From positions 2,232,001 to 2,296,000 of the forward strand of contig NZ_JACHWH010000001.1 in the NCBI RefSeq assembly GCF_014191255.1: a stretch of DNA of 64,000 nt. Direction: 5' to 3'. Both the position numbers and the translations under genes were made by a program. Of the stretch, positions 1-9,146 are shown in pieces. The DNA is from Amycolatopsis bartoniae. Its GTDB lineage: Bacteria; Actinomycetota; Actinomycetes; Mycobacteriales; Pseudonocardiaceae. Positions within the stretch are counted from its first letter, which is position 1; the number at the start of each line of letters is the position of its first letter. The notes beneath the pieces are model-generated. The model saw nothing but the letters and a program-made list of their open reading frames with translations. It made no database searches and was not told the origin of the DNA.

Positions 1-1
1 C

Positions 2-190
2 GCGCACACGTTGCTCGACGAGCTGGACGCAGAGCTTGAGGCGGCAGGACTCGCCGCGCTGGTCCGGGTTCCGCGGTTCCTCGACTCGCGTCGAGCGGGT
101 CGCTCGCGCCGCCGGGTCGACCGGACGGCGTTGCGGTCGCTGCCGACGCGCCTGGACGCCACCGACCTGATGGAGGGAGACGCCGCCTGA
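2..190 (+). CDS. C-terminal part of an unrecognised AICE protein (cut by window edge)
   Basis: An open frame runs from the left edge to a TGA at 188-190. The 62 visible residues are Leu/Ala-rich at first and then strongly basic (Arg clusters around SRRAGRSRRR), compatible with an amphipathic helix followed by a nucleic-acid-binding or cytoplasmic tail. The stop overlaps the ATG of the next small ORF, which marks it as the first visible cistron of the transfer operon. I do not recognise the family and infer no function. Confidence 0.55.
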   Translation, partial: AHTLLDELDAELEAAGLAALVRVPRFLDSRRAGRSRRRVDRTALRSLPTRLDATDLMEGDAA

Positions 191-345
191 TGGTCCGACT
201 CCTGATCACTGACCCCGGCGCGGCGCATCCCGCCAAGAACGCCGCCGCGCCGGGACTCCCCAAGCAGCCAACAAACCGTTCGGAGAGGGGTCTCATGGTA
301 GGCACTTCTGCTTCCCGCGTGCACCACGTCGGGGGTGGCCACTGA
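190..345 (+). CDS. 51-aa micro-ORF bridging two transfer-operon genes
   Basis: An ATG at 190 overlaps the upstream TGA, and its TGA at 343-345 overlaps the ATG of the SsgA-like gene, so ribosomes could pass through the gap without leaving the message. A GGAGGGAG sequence lies about nine bases before the ATG. A second in-frame ATG at 295 has its own GGAGAGGGG and would give a 16-residue peptide. The sequence is low in hydrophobic residues and resembles no family I know. It may be a translational-coupling leader rather than a functional protein. Confidence 0.45.
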   Translation: MVRLLITDPGAAHPAKNAAAPGLPKQPTNRSERGLMVGTSASRVHHVGGGH

Positions 346-770
346 TGTCACTCCACAGCCTGACCCTTCCGCTGTGGGCGGAGTGGGAGGACGCATCCAG
401 CGAGGTGCTTGAGCTGCGCCCGATCCGGGTGAAGTTCCGGTACCGCTCTGATGACCCCTTCGCGATCCTGCTCGACTTCGCTGTCGGCTCCGAGTTGTGG
501 GTTCGCTGGACGATCGCCCGTGAGCTACTGGCTGATGGCCTGGTGCAGGACTCGGGGGAGGGGGATGTGCACATCGCGCCGGACTCGGACCTGTCGTCGC
601 GCGTCTGGCTGGCCTTCTCGACGCCAACCGGCGTCGCGGTGTTCGCCTTCCAGCGCTCGGACCTGGAAACGGCGCTTGCCGAGACCGAAGTGCTCGTACC
701 GATCGGAAGCGAGTCAGCACTCATCGACTGGGACCGCGAGCTGAAGCACCTTCGAGGTGATGCCGCATGA
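345..770 (+). CDS. SsgA-family (SALP) sporulation/cell-division regulator
   Basis: The 141-residue product has the length and motif order of SsgA/SsgB-like proteins: RYRSDDPFA at about 32-40, a VRWTIARELLADGL block at 53-66, GEGDVHIAP at 71-79, and an acidic IDWDREL near the C-terminus. SALPs are small actinobacterial proteins that govern septum placement and spore-wall events; SsgB recruits FtsZ. It lies in an overlapping operon with Spd-like and TraB proteins of a conjugative element. A role in adjusting septation during plasmid spread is my inference. Family assignment is strong, the subgroup is unknown. Confidence 0.88.
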   Translation: MSLHSLTLPLWAEWEDASSEVLELRPIRVKFRYRSDDPFAILLDFAVGSELWVRWTIARELLADGLVQDSGEGDVHIAPDSDLSSRVWLAFSTPTGVAVFAFQRSDLETALAETEVLVPIGSESALIDWDRELKHLRGDAA

Positions 771-1081
771 CTTCCCACTCGGTTCTGTACATCCTCGCCG
801 GACTCGCCGCTGTTGGTCTCTTCTCGACGTGGCGTTCTGGCCGGAAGTCCGCCCTCAAGGCGCGCAACGGGGTCCGCGAAGTCACCCGCATGACCGGCAA
901 CGCCGTTCGGACCTTGCTCACGGCCGCGCTGATCGTCGGCGTGCAATGGCTGGTCATTCGCTTCTGGCACAACACAACCGCGCTGCTCATCGTGCTCATC
1001 GTTCCGGCGCTGTTCGCCGGCGCCGCGGTCGCGCGTCTGCTCGCGGTGACCGAGATCGTCACGACCAGGGGGCACTCATGA
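767..1081 (+). CDS. Small Spd-like membrane protein of the AICE transfer operon
   Basis: This 104-residue protein overlaps its upstream neighbour by four bases (ATGA). It has a short N-terminal hydrophobic segment, a basic stretch near residues 23-45, and two clear membrane helices at about 48-67 and 71-94. Small membrane proteins between the early operon genes and traB are typical of actinomycete conjugative elements, where Spd proteins carry DNA through septal cross-walls after primary transfer. The assignment rests on context and topology, because Spd proteins share little sequence. Confidence 0.65.
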   Translation: MTSHSVLYILAGLAAVGLFSTWRSGRKSALKARNGVREVTRMTGNAVRTLLTAALIVGVQWLVIRFWHNTTALLIVLIVPALFAGAAVARLLAVTEIVTTRGHS

Positions 1082-1896
1082 CAGAGACTCGGGAAGACGT
1101 GCCGTCGACGGCGGACAAGCTGAGGCAGGAGGCCGCTACCGCGGCTCAGGTGCGGGCGCTGTCGAACAACCCGGACGTGGTCGCGCTACGGGTGGAGAAA
1201 GTCCGGTCCTTCGTGGACTCACTGGTGTGGGTTGGGATCTTCCTCGGACTTGCCTTCACGATGGTCAACGTCCAGACCTTCGCGGCCTCCGGTGCCGTCA
1301 CCGGGTCGTTGCCGTGGCTCGCGGCCTGGTTGCTGGACCCGATGGTGTCGCTCGTGCTCGTCGCTGTGCTGCGGGCGGAGCAGATCACCGCTCGATACCA
1401 AGTCCACGTAGGAACGTGGGCGCACCGGACGAAGTGGTTCGCGTTCCTCGCCACGTACGCGATGAACACGTGGCGCTCGTGGACGCGGGTGGACGTGGCC
1501 GGAGTGGTGCTGCACTCGGTTCCGCCGGTGCTGGTCTTCCTGGCAGCCGAGACCGCGCCGGTGCTCCGGGATCGACTCACCGAGGCCGTTGCTCGCGCCG
1601 CTGCTCCGGCGTTCACGGGCGCTCCTGCGGAGACCGTTCACGAGACACGCGAGGAGGCCCCGTCGCGACCGGTCGTTCAGCGGCGCAAGCCGAAGGCGAA
1701 GCCCGGGCGGAAGTTGCGCGCGGACTACCTGGCGGAAGCGCGAGCGGCGTGGACCCCGGGGATCGAGGTCACTCCCGCGTGGGTGCGGTCGGTCTGCCCG
1801 GAGATTTCGCGGGGGACCAGCAAGAACGTCGCGGACGAGTTGCGCGCTGAGGTTGTCAGCGCTCCGACCGACGAGCCACGTGAGGAGGCCGCCTGA
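1078..1896 (+). CDS. DUF2637 / SpdB-like membrane protein
   Basis: The ATG at 1078 overlaps the previous stop (ATGA) and gives 272 residues; a longer frame opens upstream but has no coupling or start signal. Hydrophobic segments lie near 46-70, 76-99, 119-132 and 139-158. They are followed by a Pro/Arg/Lys-rich linker and a C-terminal part (about 205-265, WTPGIEVTPAWVRSVCP) that looks like a small helical DNA-binding domain. DUF2637 proteins are common next to TraB in actinomycete elements and are regarded as spread proteins. Its stop overlaps the traB ATG. Confidence 0.75.
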   Translation: MTETREDVPSTADKLRQEAATAAQVRALSNNPDVVALRVEKVRSFVDSLVWVGIFLGLAFTMVNVQTFAASGAVTGSLPWLAAWLLDPMVSLVLVAVLRAEQITARYQVHVGTWAHRTKWFAFLATYAMNTWRSWTRVDVAGVVLHSVPPVLVFLAAETAPVLRDRLTEAVARAAAPAFTGAPAETVHETREEAPSRPVVQRRKPKAKPGRKLRADYLAEARAAWTPGIEVTPAWVRSVCPEISRGTSKNVADELRAEVVSAPTDEPREEAA

Positions 1897-4142
1897 TGCC
1901 CGCTTCCGACGACCAAGGCCGTGATGACGACTTCCACCGTGAGGAGCCCATGAACACCTCCGATCAGGAGCCCGTGAACACCGGCGACAGCGAGGCCACC
2001 AACGGCAAGGTGCTGCCGTTCACACTGCGTCCGGACAGCGCCTCGACACCGGAAGAGATCCCCGTTCAGGAACGGCGGGATGTCCTCGACGCCGAGGAGG
2101 TCCGGCACCCGGTGTTGGTGGATCTCCCGGTGGCGCGCAAGCCGTCGTGGTGGGAGAGCACGCGGGAGGCGAAGATCCGGCCGTTGCTGCCGGAGTGGGC
2201 GCGCTCGCGCCGGGAGCTGACCGACCGCGTGCGGTGGCTGGCGCTCTACGCCGGACACACGACGGCGTATCACGCGCTGCGGGCTCCGCAGTACGCCGGA
2301 ATCCTGCTCGTGCGCTCCCCGCGTGGCCTGTGGCGGGTGCTGGTCGCGACGCACCGGTGGATCTACGACGCGGAGGGCAAGCCGCTGCGGGCGGCCGCAG
2401 TGACCGCGTCGGAGTACGACAAGTACGTCAAGCTCGCCGAGGTCCGCGCCGAGCGCATCCGCAAGCGCGGCCTGGTGGCGTTCCTGACCCTGCTCGTCGC
2501 AGCCGCCGGGGTCTACCTGCTGGTGTCCTACAGCGACGCGCTGGCCTGGCTGGTCGCGGCCGTCGCGGTCGGGCTGCTGGGCAAGGTCGGCACCCCCGCC
2601 GACAAGCCCGTGCTAGGCCGGGCCGTGGTGACGTCGAAGGCCCCGAAGCTGACCAGTGAGGTGGTGGTGCGCGCCCTGGCAGCGCTCGGGATCTCCGGCA
2701 TCAACCAGGCCGTGGCGAAGGGACCGGGGATCACGTTCCCGGCACCGATCACCCGCGATGGGCCGGGCTGGCGGGCGGAGGTGGACCTGCCGCACGGCGT
2801 GACGGTCACCGATGTGATGGAGCGTCGGGACAAGCTCGCCTCCGGCCTGCGTCGTCCGCTCGGGTGCGTGTGGCCGGAGCCGGTCAGCGAGGAGCACGCG
2901 GGCCGGTTGGTGATCTGGGTGGGGGATCAGGACATGGCCAGGGCCAAGCCCGCCACCTGGCCGCTGGCGAAGTCGGGGGAGGCCGACCTGTTCCAGTCCG
3001 TCCCATTCGGCACGGACCAGCGCGGCCGTCCGGTGGGCGTGGACCTGATGTTCGCGAACATGGTCATCGGCGCCATGCCCCGCATGGGCAAGACGTTCTC
3101 TCTCCGAGTGCTCGTGCTCGCCGCTGCGCTGGATCCGTGGGTGGAGCTGGTGTTGTGGGAGCTGAAGGGCACCGGCGATCTCGGGATGTTCGAGCGGGTC
3201 GCGCACGAGTACGGCTCCGGCGCCGATGACGACACCCTCGAAGGCGCGATGAACTCGCTGCGGCGCCTGTACAAGGAGCTGGAGCGCCGCTCGAAGACCA
3301 TCACCCGCATTGCCAAAGAGAACCGGGCGCTCTGCCCCGAGAACAAGGTCACGCCACAACTCTCGCGGAACCGCAAGCTCGGGTTGCACCCGATCTTCGC
3401 CGCGATCGACGAGTGCCAGGAGCTGTTTTCCCACGAGGACTACAAGGACGAGGCGAAGAAGCTCGCCGAAGGCATCATCAAGCGTGGCCCGGCGATGGGG
3501 ATCATCCTCGTGTTGGCCACGCAGCGGCCGGATGCCCAGTCCTTGCCGCCGGGTGTGAGCGCGAATGCCGGTCTGCGGTTCTGCCTGCGGGTGATGGGGC
3601 AGGTGGAGAACGACATGGTGCTGGGCACGTCAAGCTACAAGAACGGCATCCGGGCCACGACGTTCGGGGCGAAGGACAAGGGGATTGGCTACCTTGTCGG
3701 CGCCACCGACGACCCGCAAATCGTGCGCTCCTACTACATCGACGGCCCCGCTGCGGAAAAGATCGTGGAACGGGCGTGCGCCCTGCGAGGAAGGCACGGC
3801 ACCATCACCGGCCACGCGGCGGGAGAGTCCCTTGTGGACGAGTCAGCGCGGCCGTCGTACTCCCTCATCGCTGACGTGGCCTCAGTAATCCGCGCGGACG
3901 AGGCGAAGATCTGGTCCGAAACGGTGGTGGACCGGCTGGCCGAACTCCGCCCGGAGGTCTACGGCTCGTGGACCGAGCTGGACGGCCGGGCGAAGGCCAA
4001 CCAGCTCGCCGCCGGGCTCAAGCCGTTCGGGATCGAGACCGTGCAGGTCTACGGGCGCACCGAGGACGGCAAGGCCGCCAACCGGCGCGGTGTCGAGCGC
4101 GCCGAGATCTTGTCCGCCGCCCGTTCCCTCAATCGCGACTGA
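1896..4142 (+). CDS. traB: TraB/TraSA-type FtsK/SpoIIIE DNA translocase, conjugal transfer protein
   Basis: This is the single protein that moves double-stranded plasmid DNA between mycelia in actinomycetes. Of 748 residues, about 1-190 are cytoplasmic, two membrane helices span 192-228, a Walker A motif GAMPRMGKT sits at 392-400 and a Walker B FAAIDE near 501-506, with the Q-rich ATPase segment ATQRPDAQS after it. The last 65 residues form a winged-helix-like domain of the kind that reads TRS repeats in the clt locus. The start at 1896 overlaps the upstream stop; an alternative ATG at 1950 follows GAGGAG. The CTAG-rich locus lies immediately downstream. Confidence 0.93.
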   Translation: MPASDDQGRDDDFHREEPMNTSDQEPVNTGDSEATNGKVLPFTLRPDSASTPEEIPVQERRDVLDAEEVRHPVLVDLPVARKPSWWESTREAKIRPLLPEWARSRRELTDRVRWLALYAGHTTAYHALRAPQYAGILLVRSPRGLWRVLVATHRWIYDAEGKPLRAAAVTASEYDKYVKLAEVRAERIRKRGLVAFLTLLVAAAGVYLLVSYSDALAWLVAAVAVGLLGKVGTPADKPVLGRAVVTSKAPKLTSEVVVRALAALGISGINQAVAKGPGITFPAPITRDGPGWRAEVDLPHGVTVTDVMERRDKLASGLRRPLGCVWPEPVSEEHAGRLVIWVGDQDMARAKPATWPLAKSGEADLFQSVPFGTDQRGRPVGVDLMFANMVIGAMPRMGKTFSLRVLVLAAALDPWVELVLWELKGTGDLGMFERVAHEYGSGADDDTLEGAMNSLRRLYKELERRSKTITRIAKENRALCPENKVTPQLSRNRKLGLHPIFAAIDECQELFSHEDYKDEAKKLAEGIIKRGPAMGIILVLATQRPDAQSLPPGVSANAGLRFCLRVMGQVENDMVLGTSSYKNGIRATTFGAKDKGIGYLVGATDDPQIVRSYYIDGPAAEKIVERACALRGRHGTITGHAAGESLVDESARPSYSLIADVASVIRADEAKIWSETVVDRLAELRPEVYGSWTELDGRAKANQLAAGLKPFGIETVQVYGRTEDGKAANRRGVERAEILSAARSLNRD

Positions 4143-5158: not shown

Positions 5159-5683
5159 ATGTCCGCCGCGACCGACGCCCTGACCGACCCTGAACGCGGT
5201 TTCCTCGGCTGCCTCATGCAGCTCCCGGCCGCCGCAGCCCGCCGCCTGCTGGCCGGGATGCGTGCCGACGACATGGCCGGAGCCGTGACCGCCCCCGTGC
5301 TGCGGCTGGCGATCGAACTCGCCGCCGCGGACACGGCCCCCGCGCCGGTCGCGCTCTACGCCCACGCCATCACCACCGGCCGCGCGCCGGGCCGCCAGCG
5401 GCGGGAGTGGCTGTCCGGCTGGCTCATCGACACCTACCGCGACGCACCACCGCCCGCTCTGGCCGACCACCTCAAGACGGCAGTACTGGAGGCGGCGTGG
5501 CGACGCGCCCTCCTCGCGCACACCCAACGGGTCCAGGACGCGGCGGAGACCGCCGACGTGGACAGGCTGCACGAGTTGGCTGACGACACCGACGTGGTCG
5601 ACGAGCTGTGGCAGCGCTACCACGCCGCCCGCGCCGGACAAGTCGGAACCAGTCTCACCGCCCGTCTTGGAGTGGCCGCGTGA
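5159..5683 (+). CDS. DnaB N-terminal-domain-like replication accessory protein
   Basis: The ATG at 5159 follows GAAAGG at a good distance and yields 174 residues. The first 80 (ERGFLGCLMQLP, then RADDM and an AIELAAADTAPAPVALYAHAI block) follow the helical layout of the N-terminal domain of replicative helicase DnaB, but no RecA-type ATPase domain follows. Stand-alone DnaB-N-like proteins are frequent on actinomycete elements, where they probably recruit or load helicase. It begins the replication module and ends overlapping a 26-residue ORF that leads into the DUF3631 gene. Confidence 0.6.
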   Translation: MSAATDALTDPERGFLGCLMQLPAAAARRLLAGMRADDMAGAVTAPVLRLAIELAAADTAPAPVALYAHAITTGRAPGRQRREWLSGWLIDTYRDAPPPALADHLKTAVLEAAWRRALLAHTQRVQDAAETADVDRLHELADDTDVVDELWQRYHAARAGQVGTSLTARLGVAA

Positions 5684-5760
5684 GGAAGCGGATCACTGGC
5701 CGAGGTACGGCCGTCGCCACCGTGACTTGTGCACTCAATCGCCCGGAGGAGGCCGCCTGA
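5680..5760 (+). CDS. 26-aa micro-ORF bridging two replication genes
   Basis: A GTG at 5680 overlaps the upstream TGA (GTGA), and the ORF ends with a TGA whose last base is the A of the next ATG at 5760. The gap is thus spanned by one continuous translated stretch. A GGAG precedes the GTG at a suitable distance, and the SD of the following gene (GGAGGAGG) lies inside it. The peptide is basic and resembles nothing known. It is best read as a possible coupling leader; translation is not proven. Confidence 0.4.
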   Translation: MRKRITGRGTAVATVTCALNRPEEAA

Positions 5761-7139
5761 TGCCTGTACCCGCCGACACCACTACGAACACGCTCGCCGC
5801 GATCGACGACGCAATCGGCGCGGGCGTGGCTGGCGGTCCCGCGACCTGCTGTCAGTGTGGCCGCCCGCTGGGGGAGTCGCCCTCGGACGACTTCTGCTCG
5901 GAGAACTGTCAGCAGGTGTGGCGCTCGGCGAACCGCGTTGTCATGGCCGGGCATGAGGTGCTGGACCGGGTGCGGGATTTTGTGGCGCGGTTCAACGTGT
6001 TCCCGTCCGAGCACTGCGCACCCATGCTCGCGCTCTGGTACGCCCACACCCACGCCGCTGACCACTTCTATGTCACGCCGCGGCTGATCCTGTCCTCTGT
6101 GGAACCCGGGTCCGGCAAGACGCGGGTGCTGGAGGTGGCGCAGTTCCTCGTGCGGGCACCGGAGATGACGTTCTCCGCTACCACGGCCGCGCTGTTCCGC
6201 ATGGTGTCCGAAGGGCCGATCACGATCCTGTTCGATGAGGTGGACACGATCTTCACCGCCAAGGGTGGCAACAACGAAGATCTCCGTGGCCTGCTCAACG
6301 CCGGGTACAAGCGCGGCGCGACCGTCGCCCGTTGTGTCGGTGACGCCAAGGCCATGAAGGTTCAGCGCTTCCCCGTCTTCGCTCCCGCCGCGCTTGCCGG
6401 GATCGCAGGCAACATGCCCGACACCGTGACCACCCGCGCCATCACCGTGCACATGAAACGCCGCCGCCAGGACGAAGAGGTCGAAGAGTTTTGGGAAGAG
6501 GAGGTCGAGGCGGAAGCCGCACCGCTGCGGGACGCGCTCGCGGCTTGGGTGGAATCCGTGATGGACAAGATCAGCAGGGGACGGCCCGCCATGCCGCCCG
6601 GTGTGCGGGACCGCTCCGCCGAGATCTGGCGCCCCCTCATCGCCATCGCCGACGCGGCCGGAGGCCACTGGCCCGACACCGCCCGCGCCGCGTGCGCGCA
6701 CTTCGTCGAAGTCAGCAACGCCGACCGCAACGGCGGCGGGCAGCGCCTCCAGCTCTTGGCCGACCTTCGCGACCTCTACACCGCCCGAGACACCGACAAG
6801 CTCACCACCGACGAGATCCTCGGCGCCTTGCATCAGCTGGACGAATCCCCGTGGGGTGACCTCGACGGCAAACCGCTCGACCCCCGGCGGCTGGCCGGGT
6901 TCCTCAAGCCCTATGGCGTCCGTGCCAGGGACATCAAGCTGCCGGGCGGTGGGGTTCGCAAGGGCTACCGCACCACCGGACCGGACGGCCTCGCCGACGC
7001 CTGGCAGCGCTACCTGCCTCCTGCCGCTACCTCCGCGCGGAGCGCTACCCCGCAGGTCAGAGCGGTAGCGGAAGCCGGGGAGGTAGCGGACACAAGCGCT
7101 ACCTCTGGCGCGTCGCCGCCCCTGACCGACCGCAGGTAG
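5760..7139 (+). CDS. DUF3631-family replication ATPase with N-terminal zinc-finger motif
   Basis: The ATG at 5760 follows GGAGGAGG and is coupled to the micro-ORF; the in-frame ATG at 5667 lies inside the previous gene. Of 459 residues, cysteines at 30/31, 33, 46 and 50 form a compact zinc-ribbon-like motif. A Walker A EPGSGKT is near 115-121 and a Walker B ILFDEVD near 155-162, followed by the DUF3631 core and a C-terminal winged-helix-like segment. DUF3631 proteins act as helicase-like replication proteins on AICEs, often beside a prim-pol primase. The last 44 codons overlap the GGTAGCG repeats. Confidence 0.75.
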   Translation: MPVPADTTTNTLAAIDDAIGAGVAGGPATCCQCGRPLGESPSDDFCSENCQQVWRSANRVVMAGHEVLDRVRDFVARFNVFPSEHCAPMLALWYAHTHAADHFYVTPRLILSSVEPGSGKTRVLEVAQFLVRAPEMTFSATTAALFRMVSEGPITILFDEVDTIFTAKGGNNEDLRGLLNAGYKRGATVARCVGDAKAMKVQRFPVFAPAALAGIAGNMPDTVTTRAITVHMKRRRQDEEVEEFWEEEVEAEAAPLRDALAAWVESVMDKISRGRPAMPPGVRDRSAEIWRPLIAIADAAGGHWPDTARAACAHFVEVSNADRNGGGQRLQLLADLRDLYTARDTDKLTTDEILGALHQLDESPWGDLDGKPLDPRRLAGFLKPYGVRARDIKLPGGGVRKGYRTTGPDGLADAWQRYLPPAATSARSATPQVRAVAEAGEVADTSATSGASPPLTDRR

Positions 7140-7335: not shown

Positions 7336-7635
7336 ATGGCTACCGCCAACGAAATCAGCGAACTCGCCGCCACCCTGGCACAGCTCGCCCGCACCATCGC
7401 GGAACGTGAAACCGAACCGGCAGCACCGCCCGCACGCGTTCTTCCTGAACGCGTGATGCTCACCGCCGAAGAGGCCGCCGAACAGCTCGGCATCGGCCGG
7501 ACGCTGATGTTCAAGCTGCTTCGCACCGGCCAGATCGAATCCGTCCGCATCGGGCGACTCCGTCGCGTTCCTGTCTCCGCCATCCGGGCGTACGCCGCCC
7601 GACTCGTCGACGCCACCACCGCGAACGCCGCCTGA
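7336..7635 (+). CDS. xis: Excisionase (Xis), MerR-like helix-turn-helix
   Basis: This 99-residue basic protein carries a helix_turn_helix_17-type motif: LTAEEAAEQLGIGRTLMFKLLRTGQIESVRIGRLRRVPVSAI spans about 51-92 (here named by its ends, LTAEEAAEQLG to RVPVSAI). That motif is typical of recombination directionality factors that bend att DNA. It follows AAAGG upstream and ends 13 bases before the integrase, the standard xis-int pair of pSAM2-like elements. The 196 bases before it hold the end of the repeat cluster and no further gene. Confidence 0.85.
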   Translation: MATANEISELAATLAQLARTIAERETEPAAPPARVLPERVMLTAEEAAEQLGIGRTLMFKLLRTGQIESVRIGRLRRVPVSAIRAYAARLVDATTANAA

Positions 7636-7648
7636 AAGAGGAAGCTCC

Positions 7649-8995
7649 TTGGCTCGCAAGCGCACTGAAGGAACTCGCGCGCCGAATGGCGCCAGCAGCA
7701 TCTACGTTGGAAAAGACGGTTACTGGCACGGTCGCGTCACGGTCGGAGTGAAGGACAACGGGAAGCCCGACCGACGACATGTCCAGGCCAAGACCGAAGC
7801 GGAGGTCATCAAGAAGGTACGGCAGCTCGAACGGGAACGTGACTCGGGCACCGTTCGGAAGACCGGCCAGGAATGGACGGTCGAGAAGTGGCTGATGCAT
7901 TGGTACGAAACCATCGCCGTGCCAAACGTCCGCTACAAGACGCGCAACTACTACTGGACTGCGGTTAACAAGTACATTGTTCCGGGAATCGGCGCCCACA
8001 AGCTGTCGCGGCTCGAACCAGAGCACATCGAACGCTTCTACGCGCGCCTGCGGAAGGAAGGCGCGAAGTCTGCCACTTTGCAGCAGGTTCACATCGCGCT
8101 TCGCGCGTCGCTCAACGAGGCTGAGCGACGGAACCGGATCACCCGCAACCCCATCCGGGCCGTACGGGCGCCGAAGATCGAAGAAATCGAGATCGAGCCG
8201 TTGACTGTGGACGACGCACGGGCGATCCTCGCCATCGCGCACGGACGCAGGAACGGCGTGCGGTGGGCCATCGCGCTTGCACTCGGTCTGCGGCAGGGTG
8301 AAGCGATCGGCCTCAAGTGGTCCGATCTCAAAGTCGAGTGGCACCACGGATGCTCGGTTGCTCAGCCATGCGGAAAACGTCGCGCGGACGACTGCCCCTC
8401 CCGCCAGGTGACCGCGATGCTGACGGTCCGGCGGGCATTGCAGCGCCAGACCTGGCAGCACGGTTGCGACGGCGGCAAGTGCGGCGGCAAGCGCGGCGCC
8501 GACTGCCCGAAGCGCCACAGCGGTGGTCTCGTGGTGGTCGAACCGAAGTCCCGTGCCGGGCGCCGAGTGCTCAGCGTGCCACCACCGCTCGTGCTCGCTC
8601 TGCTGGAACACCGCGAGGCCCAAGACGTCGAGCGGCAGCAAGCGGCCGACGTGTGGCAGGACGAAGGGTGGATGTTCGCTCAGCCCACCGGCAGGCCAAC
8701 TGATCCGCGGGCGGACTACGGCGAGTGGAAGGACGTCCTCAAGGCCGCCGGTGTCCGCGAGGCACGGCTGCACGACGCGCGGCACACGGCCGCGACGTTC
8801 CTGCTCGTTCTGGGCGTCGCCCAGCGCGCGGTCATGGACGTCATGGGCTGGTCGAAAATCGACATGGCTCAGCGGTACCAACACGTCCCGGACGAGCTAC
8901 GGCAGAACATCGCATCACAGCTCGGCGGGTTGCTCTGGAAGGGACCGGACGAGGAAGACGACGACGGCCCGACAGCCGCTCCCGTACCCGCCTGA
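7649..8995 (+). CDS. int: Tyrosine-type site-specific integrase of the AICE
   Basis: The start is a TTG at 7649 behind AAAGAGGAAG. The 448-residue protein has an SAM-like core-binding domain (about 75-165) and a catalytic domain with R215, H375-x-x-R378, W401 and the nucleophile Y410. Two short Cys-rich inserts interrupt the catalytic domain: C235-x5-C241-x7-C249 and C273-x4-C278-x7-C286, each begun by HGC. They look like paired zinc-binding knuckles. The gene ends 79 bases before the tRNA-Thr that serves as attachment site. It is expected to drive integration alone and excision with Xis. Confidence 0.95.
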   Translation: MARKRTEGTRAPNGASSIYVGKDGYWHGRVTVGVKDNGKPDRRHVQAKTEAEVIKKVRQLERERDSGTVRKTGQEWTVEKWLMHWYETIAVPNVRYKTRNYYWTAVNKYIVPGIGAHKLSRLEPEHIERFYARLRKEGAKSATLQQVHIALRASLNEAERRNRITRNPIRAVRAPKIEEIEIEPLTVDDARAILAIAHGRRNGVRWAIALALGLRQGEAIGLKWSDLKVEWHHGCSVAQPCGKRRADDCPSRQVTAMLTVRRALQRQTWQHGCDGGKCGGKRGADCPKRHSGGLVVVEPKSRAGRRVLSVPPPLVLALLEHREAQDVERQQAADVWQDEGWMFAQPTGRPTDPRADYGEWKDVLKAAGVREARLHDARHTAATFLLVLGVAQRAVMDVMGWSKIDMAQRYQHVPDELRQNIASQLGGLLWKGPDEEDDDGPTAAPVPA

Positions 8996-9066: not shown

Positions 9067-9073
9067 AGAGGTG

Positions 9074-9113
9074 AGCCGACTAGGGGACTCGAACCCCTGA
9101 CCTGCTGTTTACA
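9074..9113 (-). other. Probable att junction (tRNA-Thr 3' half)
   Basis: The integrase reads towards the tRNA 3' end, so the crossover core should lie in the segment from the discriminator base to the anticodon region, which the element must restore on integration. No second copy of this segment exists in the window, as expected if the other att is beyond the left edge. Core length is not determinable here. Confidence 0.55.
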
Positions 9114-9146
9114 AGACAGCTGCTCTACCAGCTGAGCTAAGTCGGC
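9074..9146 (-). tRNA. tRNA-Thr (anticodon UGU)
   Basis: Read on the minus strand, the 73 bases fold into a standard cloverleaf: acceptor GCCGACT/AGTCGGC, D stem GCTC/GAGC, anticodon stem GCTGT/ACAGC with loop CTTGTAA (anticodon TGT, reading ACA), and T arm AGGGG-TTCGAAC-CCCTA. The discriminator base is U and CCA is not encoded. The gene is intact although an element is inserted at its 3' end, which is the usual outcome of AICE integration. Confidence 0.95.

Follow-up and report, generated by a model that had tools for sequence, protein, structure and literature searches.

An SsgA-like protein gene recurs in transfer operons of integrative elements of Amycolatopsis and its relatives, behind a candidate hairpin leader

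We analyzed a 64,000-nucleotide stretch of the Amycolatopsis bartoniae genome (RefSeq assembly GCF_014191255.1, contig NZ_JACHWH010000001.1, positions 2,232,001 to 2,296,000; "the window"), near the start of which the transfer operon of an actinomycete integrative and conjugative element (AICE) contains a gene for an SsgA-like protein (SALP). All protein-coding genes of the window described here lie on the forward strand. The operon encodes the SALP, an SsgA-family protein of 141 amino acids (345..770), a 104-aa and a 272-aa membrane protein (767..1081 and 1078..1896; aa, amino acids), and TraB, an FtsK/SpoIIIE-type DNA translocase (1896..4142). Upstream are a hairpin leader, R1 (206..269), and, at a conserved distance after it, a Shine-Dalgarno-like GGAG (282-285) with an ATG (295-297), together spanning 282..297. 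This ATG opens a 16-codon open reading frame (ORF; 295..345), longer in some relatives, which leads into the SALP gene, with a TGATG overlap between its stop codon and the start of that gene. A sequence-only reading of this DNA had described the series at 345..4142 with overlapping junctions; both coordinates and junctions were correct, with ATGA at 767-770 between the SALP and 104-aa ORFs, ATGA at 1078-1081 between the 104-aa and 272-aa ORFs, and TGATG at 1896 between the 272-aa ORF and traB. Because these four genes overlap, they are probably translationally coupled.

By sequence, the SALP is a true SsgA-family member. It scored 94 bits against PF04686 (cut-off 25), and its best sequence matches in the PDB were 3cm1 (E 5e-19) and 6slc (E 1e-17), the sole solved relatives that the sequence search found. 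An AlphaFold2 model with a mean pLDDT of 86.9 predicts the SsgB fold, and Foldseek placed 3cm1, 6slc, and 6suj at the top of its matches to this model (3cm1 at E 1.2e-11, TM 0.79). The family assignment in the sequence-only reading was thus borne out by both checks, the profile score and the predicted fold. The protein is not an SsgD equivalog, since it reached 79.5 bits against NF052496, below the 185-bit cut-off.

In the alignment, W51, R55, L57, V115, G118, and E120 of SsgB correspond to W55, R59, L61, V118, G121, and E123 of the SALP, and four SsgB positions are altered (Y35F, V37I, L96V, and L97F). Substitution of W51, L57, V115, G118, or E120 disturbs sporulation septation, R55 holds E120, and SsgB recruits FtsZ, with SsgB substitutions rotating or blocking septa (PMC8061694); SsgA localizes at sites of wall remodeling (PMC4255298, PMC3814722). 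Since the six SsgB residues are kept, a role of the SALP at the septum is possible. The SALP shares family, length, predicted fold, and key SsgB residues with SsgA to SsgG of Streptomyces (PF04686), but unlike them it is encoded in a transfer operon and, besides not being an SsgD equivalog, falls outside the chromosomal SALPs that we sampled.

Its operon partners are identified with unequal firmness. The TraB assignment of the sequence-only reading held, with 32.6 bits against PF01580 (cut-off 24), so the element has the FtsK/SpoIIIE-like TraB expected of an AICE. The two membrane proteins we call Spd-like, a name given for their position and for the three membrane spans that hydropathy predicts in each. 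The arrangement resembles the Spd/Tra spread modules of pIJ101, pSVH1, and pJV1, in which genes for small membrane proteins adjoin the translocase gene, but differs in that the proteins here match none of the known Spd families by sequence and a SALP has been added. Profile comparisons gave no significant link between the 272-aa protein and Spd-like proteins from elsewhere.

We surveyed how often a SALP accompanies traB. A TraB search of 297 genomes of the family, with at most three TraB candidates scored per genome, gave a match in 217. Among the TraB matches listed, 100 loci were taken, 80 down the ranking and 20 more distant ones picked by eye; set aside were the G221 copy of a locus also in G203, the G051 locus, which lies at the end of a contig, and another locus of G203/G221. 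Because the flank is cut short in some loci, SALP absence means "not found." Counting the element in the window, 12 of 101 loci have a SALP gene that precedes traB and is read from the same strand. A SALP profile (alignment A2) was then run on the 297 genomes regardless of TraB and yielded 16 AICE-type SALPs at E 1e-33, including the 12 loci from which it had been built. The four new ones (G130, G198, G113, and G049) are all upstream of a traB as well, and the TraB beside them is 26-27% identical to that of the window in three cases and 21% (a weak match) in one. From the end of the SALP gene to traB the distance is 1.1-2.6 kb in 16/16.

The SALP occupies this same place beside three TraB lineages. 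The link between SALP and traB is therefore not due to chance. Random placement of SALP genes on AICEs, which the sequence-only reading had named as a ground for refutation, is not what the survey showed, with the SALP upstream of traB in 12/101 loci and in 16/16 profile matches. The SALP is an accessory part of AICE transfer operons. In 11 of the 19 genomes of the same genus, the profile sets these SALPs apart, at 184-243 bits vs. at most 112 for other SALPs. Across the class, it returned the window's own copy alone (1/394 genomes, at E 1e-34, a threshold that other SALP subfamilies would escape). Among 80 named traB loci, a SALP was found in seven, each a repeat of a family locus already counted.

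The history of the SALP was examined in an unrooted tree of 55 SsgA-family domains. Thirteen SALPs from AICEs, those of types I and II together with the one of G028, cluster with support 98/90, and the G049 SALP joins them at 95/73. This 13-member group stands apart from 32 chromosomal rows, themselves a sample, and no grouping with these rows identified the AICE SALP as an orthologue of a host SALP. The G254 and G018 SALPs fall together outside the AICE group, G018 at the end of a very long branch. In the tree built for TraB from 81 loci (bits >=380, length >=550), presence of the SALP requires at least four changes, compared with a shuffled mean of 11.4.

SALP and TraB do not always share a history. 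The G092 SALP groups with those of G146, G106, and G175 (95/87), though the TraBs are far apart. Relative to the window's element, G146, G106, and G175 have 87% identity in TraB, 63-67% in the SALP, 81-83% in the 104-aa protein, and 79-81% in the 272-aa protein; G026, G257, and G092 have only 51-52% in TraB, with 55-65%, 77-85%, and 77-80% in the other three. Because these identities are similar at 51-52% and at 87% TraB identity, the SALP has in one set of elements moved with the membrane-protein genes rather than with traB. The ratio of nonsynonymous to synonymous substitution rates (dN/dS) was below 1 in 55/55 pairs of 11 of the 16 SALPs, ranging from 0.07 to 0.92, with the caveat that dS estimates are unreliable in DNA this rich in GC.

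The leader upstream of the SALP was located by a covariance-model match. Its stem is a perfect 12-bp helix (arms 214-225/243-254) around the loop CATCCCGCCAAGAACGC, followed by CUCCCC. Alignment A4 holds 48 rows chosen by eye from 82 pattern matches, and its paired share is biased upward because the rows were picked with their printed folds in view; in it, 10/13 pairs carry changes in both partners, and the paired share of cells is 93.3%, against at most 48.3% in slid controls. In alignment A5, whose 78 matches were fitted to the covariance model and are thus also stem-biased, 12/13 pairs changed on both sides and 93.6% of cells were paired. A stem-blind control began from loop matches: among those followed by a ribosome site and a start codon, 46/53 had a helix score of at least 9 (shuffled, 0/53), and among the others, 15/106 (shuffled, 2). 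Folded on its own with RNAfold, the window copy did not stand out from shuffled sequences (z -0.85), and the case for the hairpin is one of comparison among copies, not of single-copy folding.

Leader matches were found in 70 of 100 sources, namely the window's element and 99 fetched traB loci. A further 85 sources gave 42 matches, repeats included, those from other families being weaker; several of these matches, in Streptomyces and relatives, lie downstream of traB. Across the class, 12/246 genomes had matches, and the A. bartoniae genome has one. No exact match to the leader pattern occurred in the viral contigs scanned. Rfam 15 gave no match at the hairpin at the gathering score (window positions 1-1200 and six whole loci), and no description appeared among the open-access papers that the searches listed; the leader is apparently undescribed so far. 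We dropped an alternative reading of the region as a conserved small protein (motif GAAHPAKNAAAPGLP) because the alignment shows conservation of nucleotides and stem pairing instead. The CUCC after the stem and the GGAG occur together in 53/78 matches, with neither in 11 and one in 14 (Fisher p 6e-5, relatedness ignored), which is only suggestive of pairing between them.

The conserved repeat could also be a DNA site, bound by a protein such as TraB or used for strand initiation, instead of an RNA leader. Long inverted repeats can serve as DNA sites, and one case is known: sps, of the sps/SpdA2 system of pIJ101, is a protein-bound palindrome of Streptomyces plasmids that, as with the leader here, is conserved and lies near spread genes (PMC4170104). 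The pSVH1 TraB recognizes GACCCGGA (PMC5133688), which is rich in GC and has some resemblance to the first arm. However, sps is a DNA-binding site of 12 bp, placed within spdA or close to it, that differs in sequence and has no long conserved loop (PMC4170104), and the conserved loop of the leader is asymmetric. The position of the matches also argues against a DNA site. The 78 matches represent 76 places; 76 are upstream of traB on the traB strand, with each of the remaining two overlapping one of them. In 75/78, a start codon and its ribosome-binding motif stand 18-31 nt further on, compared with a mean of 6.0 and at most 12 at random places, and GGAG plus ATG at strict spacing follow 57/78 (0.56 at random places). 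One element carries six matches (L135:3813-8314), five of which stop 19-23 nt short of the start of a predicted gene; after the sixth comes an ATG where no gene was predicted. We consider a DNA site unlikely.

The operon belongs to an element of about 17.4 kb whose right part lies in the window. A tyrosine integrase (7649..8995) and an excisionase-type helix-turn-helix (HTH) protein (7336..7635) were identified by family matches, and a 43-bp direct repeat joins attR, at 9073..9115 inside tRNA-Thr(tgt) (9073-9146), to attL outside the window (L005:5738-5780). Because of the integrase, the excisionase-type protein, and the repeat in tRNA-Thr, we identify the element as an AICE integrated in tRNA-Thr. 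A DUF3631 protein (5760..7139) is possibly its replication module, being the only replication-protein candidate that the family search turned up. A 174-aa AICE protein (5159..5683) has relatives in related elements, and the 3' end of a gene for a 119-aa protein (2..190; start at L005:13831, outside the window) has relatives in L060 and L079. The window begins within the element, and to its left are GntR, HTH, IrrE-like, APH-type, and pentapeptide-repeat genes. The tRNA site, integrase, excisionase, FtsK-like TraB, and membrane proteins by traB are shared with AICEs of the pSAM2, pMEA300, and SLP1 kind, whereas the SALP in the operon and the hairpin leader, of which the literature searches gave no description, set this element apart from them. 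The genome contains four SsgA-family genes, three of them outside the element. It also contains a second TraB locus (L125; G000:C1:1963256-1982150) with 39% identity and no SALP or leader match.

Several other genes near SALPs on mobile DNA were observed. Three AICEs carry, ahead of their SALP gene, a gene for a PycTM-type membrane protein (Pycsar effector; L079:5296-5763, L060:13808-14275, and L066:13134-13598), at 39.0, 39.3, and 35.2 bits, respectively (cut-off 27.2). Between the SALP and the 104-aa gene of L060 is a gene for an RRQRL-motif zinc-binding protein (L060:12256-12819; NF041638, 118.6 bits); similar genes at this place in L043, L044, L066, and L079 were assigned by likeness, and a Pseudonocardia plasmid has an RRQRL-motif gene annotated close to its SALP. 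A WhiB-family gene lies directly 5' of the SALP on Pseudonocardia plasmid pBCI2-2, as annotated (L139:5537-6387), and in the G049 element (L292:5331-6055); these may be paired developmental regulators on mobile DNA. A large protein with an AAA domain that precedes the pBCI2-2 pair was tried as a TraB, and no relation was found. Streptomyces phage Ankus encodes an SsgA-family protein (L144:3935-4291, PP171438.1; PF04686 57.5 bits, cut-off 25), a phage-borne SALP.

What the SALP does in the operon is a matter of interpretation, and the roles suggested in the sequence-only reading, opening or placing cross-walls for spread or blocking host sporulation, are hypotheses. TraB is reported to assemble at the tips of hyphae, and Spd proteins are reported to accumulate together with it in vegetative septa (PMC5133688). 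In the mechanism that we tentatively favor, at somewhat less than even odds, the SALP would be a landmark for wall sites, at cross-walls or growing tips, acting directly or via host SsgB and FtsZ. By rendering these sites receptive to the DNA pump formed by Spd and TraB, it would let the element pass between the compartments of its new host mycelium. The upstream hairpin, which lies before the ribosome-binding site of the 16-codon ORF ahead of the SALP, probably sets part of operon expression. We prefer this mechanism because the SALP shares an operon and, partly, a history with the membrane-protein genes. The broader proposal is doubtful: that elements of Amycolatopsis and its relatives have their own class of septation protein coupling the Spd-TraB pump to cross-walls, in an operon under a new class of RNA hairpin leader.

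Several results weigh against the landmark mechanism. No SALP was found in 89 of the 101 traB loci or in 58 traB loci of other named families (eight with less than 3 kb upstream); therefore, intramycelial spread does not generally depend on a SALP. On plasmids, none of the six records examined (of 49) had a gene annotated for transfer next to the SALP, and no TraB relative was found there. The pump partners are not provably Spd, as neither the 104-aa nor the 272-aa protein matched a Pfam or NCBIfam family above cut-off; profile comparison with a DUF2637 protein gave a nonsignificant hhalign E of 0.13; and elements of types II and III have other membrane genes by the SALP, not significantly related to these. 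Finally, dN/dS rises to 0.92 in the most distant pairs, and dS is unreliable.

The SALP may act on the host instead, competing with or mimicking SsgB or SsgA and so delaying or changing septation and sporulation, such that hyphae stay open or growing during spread. Such control of host septation ranks close behind the landmark mechanism, though we think it somewhat unlikely. Host-type SALPs with lower scores, which could be its competitors, are present in each of the 19 same-genus genomes, spreading is reported to delay the development and sporulation of the recipient mycelium (PMC9513070), the SALP is paired with a WhiB-family gene in the third element lineage and on a Pseudonocardia plasmid, and NsdA- and WhiB-like regulators have been noted on Frankia AICEs (PMC3218068). 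The gene overlap and partial co-movement with the membrane-protein genes fit a free regulator less well than a component of the transfer machinery. A role in stability rather than transfer, in which the SALP brings excised copies into spores by promoting septation or segregation, finds a parallel in pIJ101 spdA2, a spread-type gene of a Streptomyces plasmid that affects segregational stability (PMC4170104), but the SALP sits inside the traB operon, and we assign this role a low probability. As for the SALP being a mere passenger, host cargo caught by chance with no role in the element, its accessory distribution is what one would expect; that reading is highly improbable given the same place beside three TraB lineages, the clustering apart from sampled chromosomal SALPs, the dN/dS below 1, and the gene overlap that has been kept.

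In the literature, as covered by titles and abstract openings, we found nothing linking SALPs to AICEs, and the word SsgA is absent from the main text of PMC3218068 and PMC9513070. The AICE transfer operon with a SALP is a real and recurrent variant. It bears on how plasmid DNA crosses septa inside the mycelium. We know of no described link from Spd proteins to the division machinery, and a division-site protein that recurs in a transfer operon is a direct candidate for that link. If the hairpin acts as RNA, many conjugative elements of actinomycetes would share a new kind of regulatory element.

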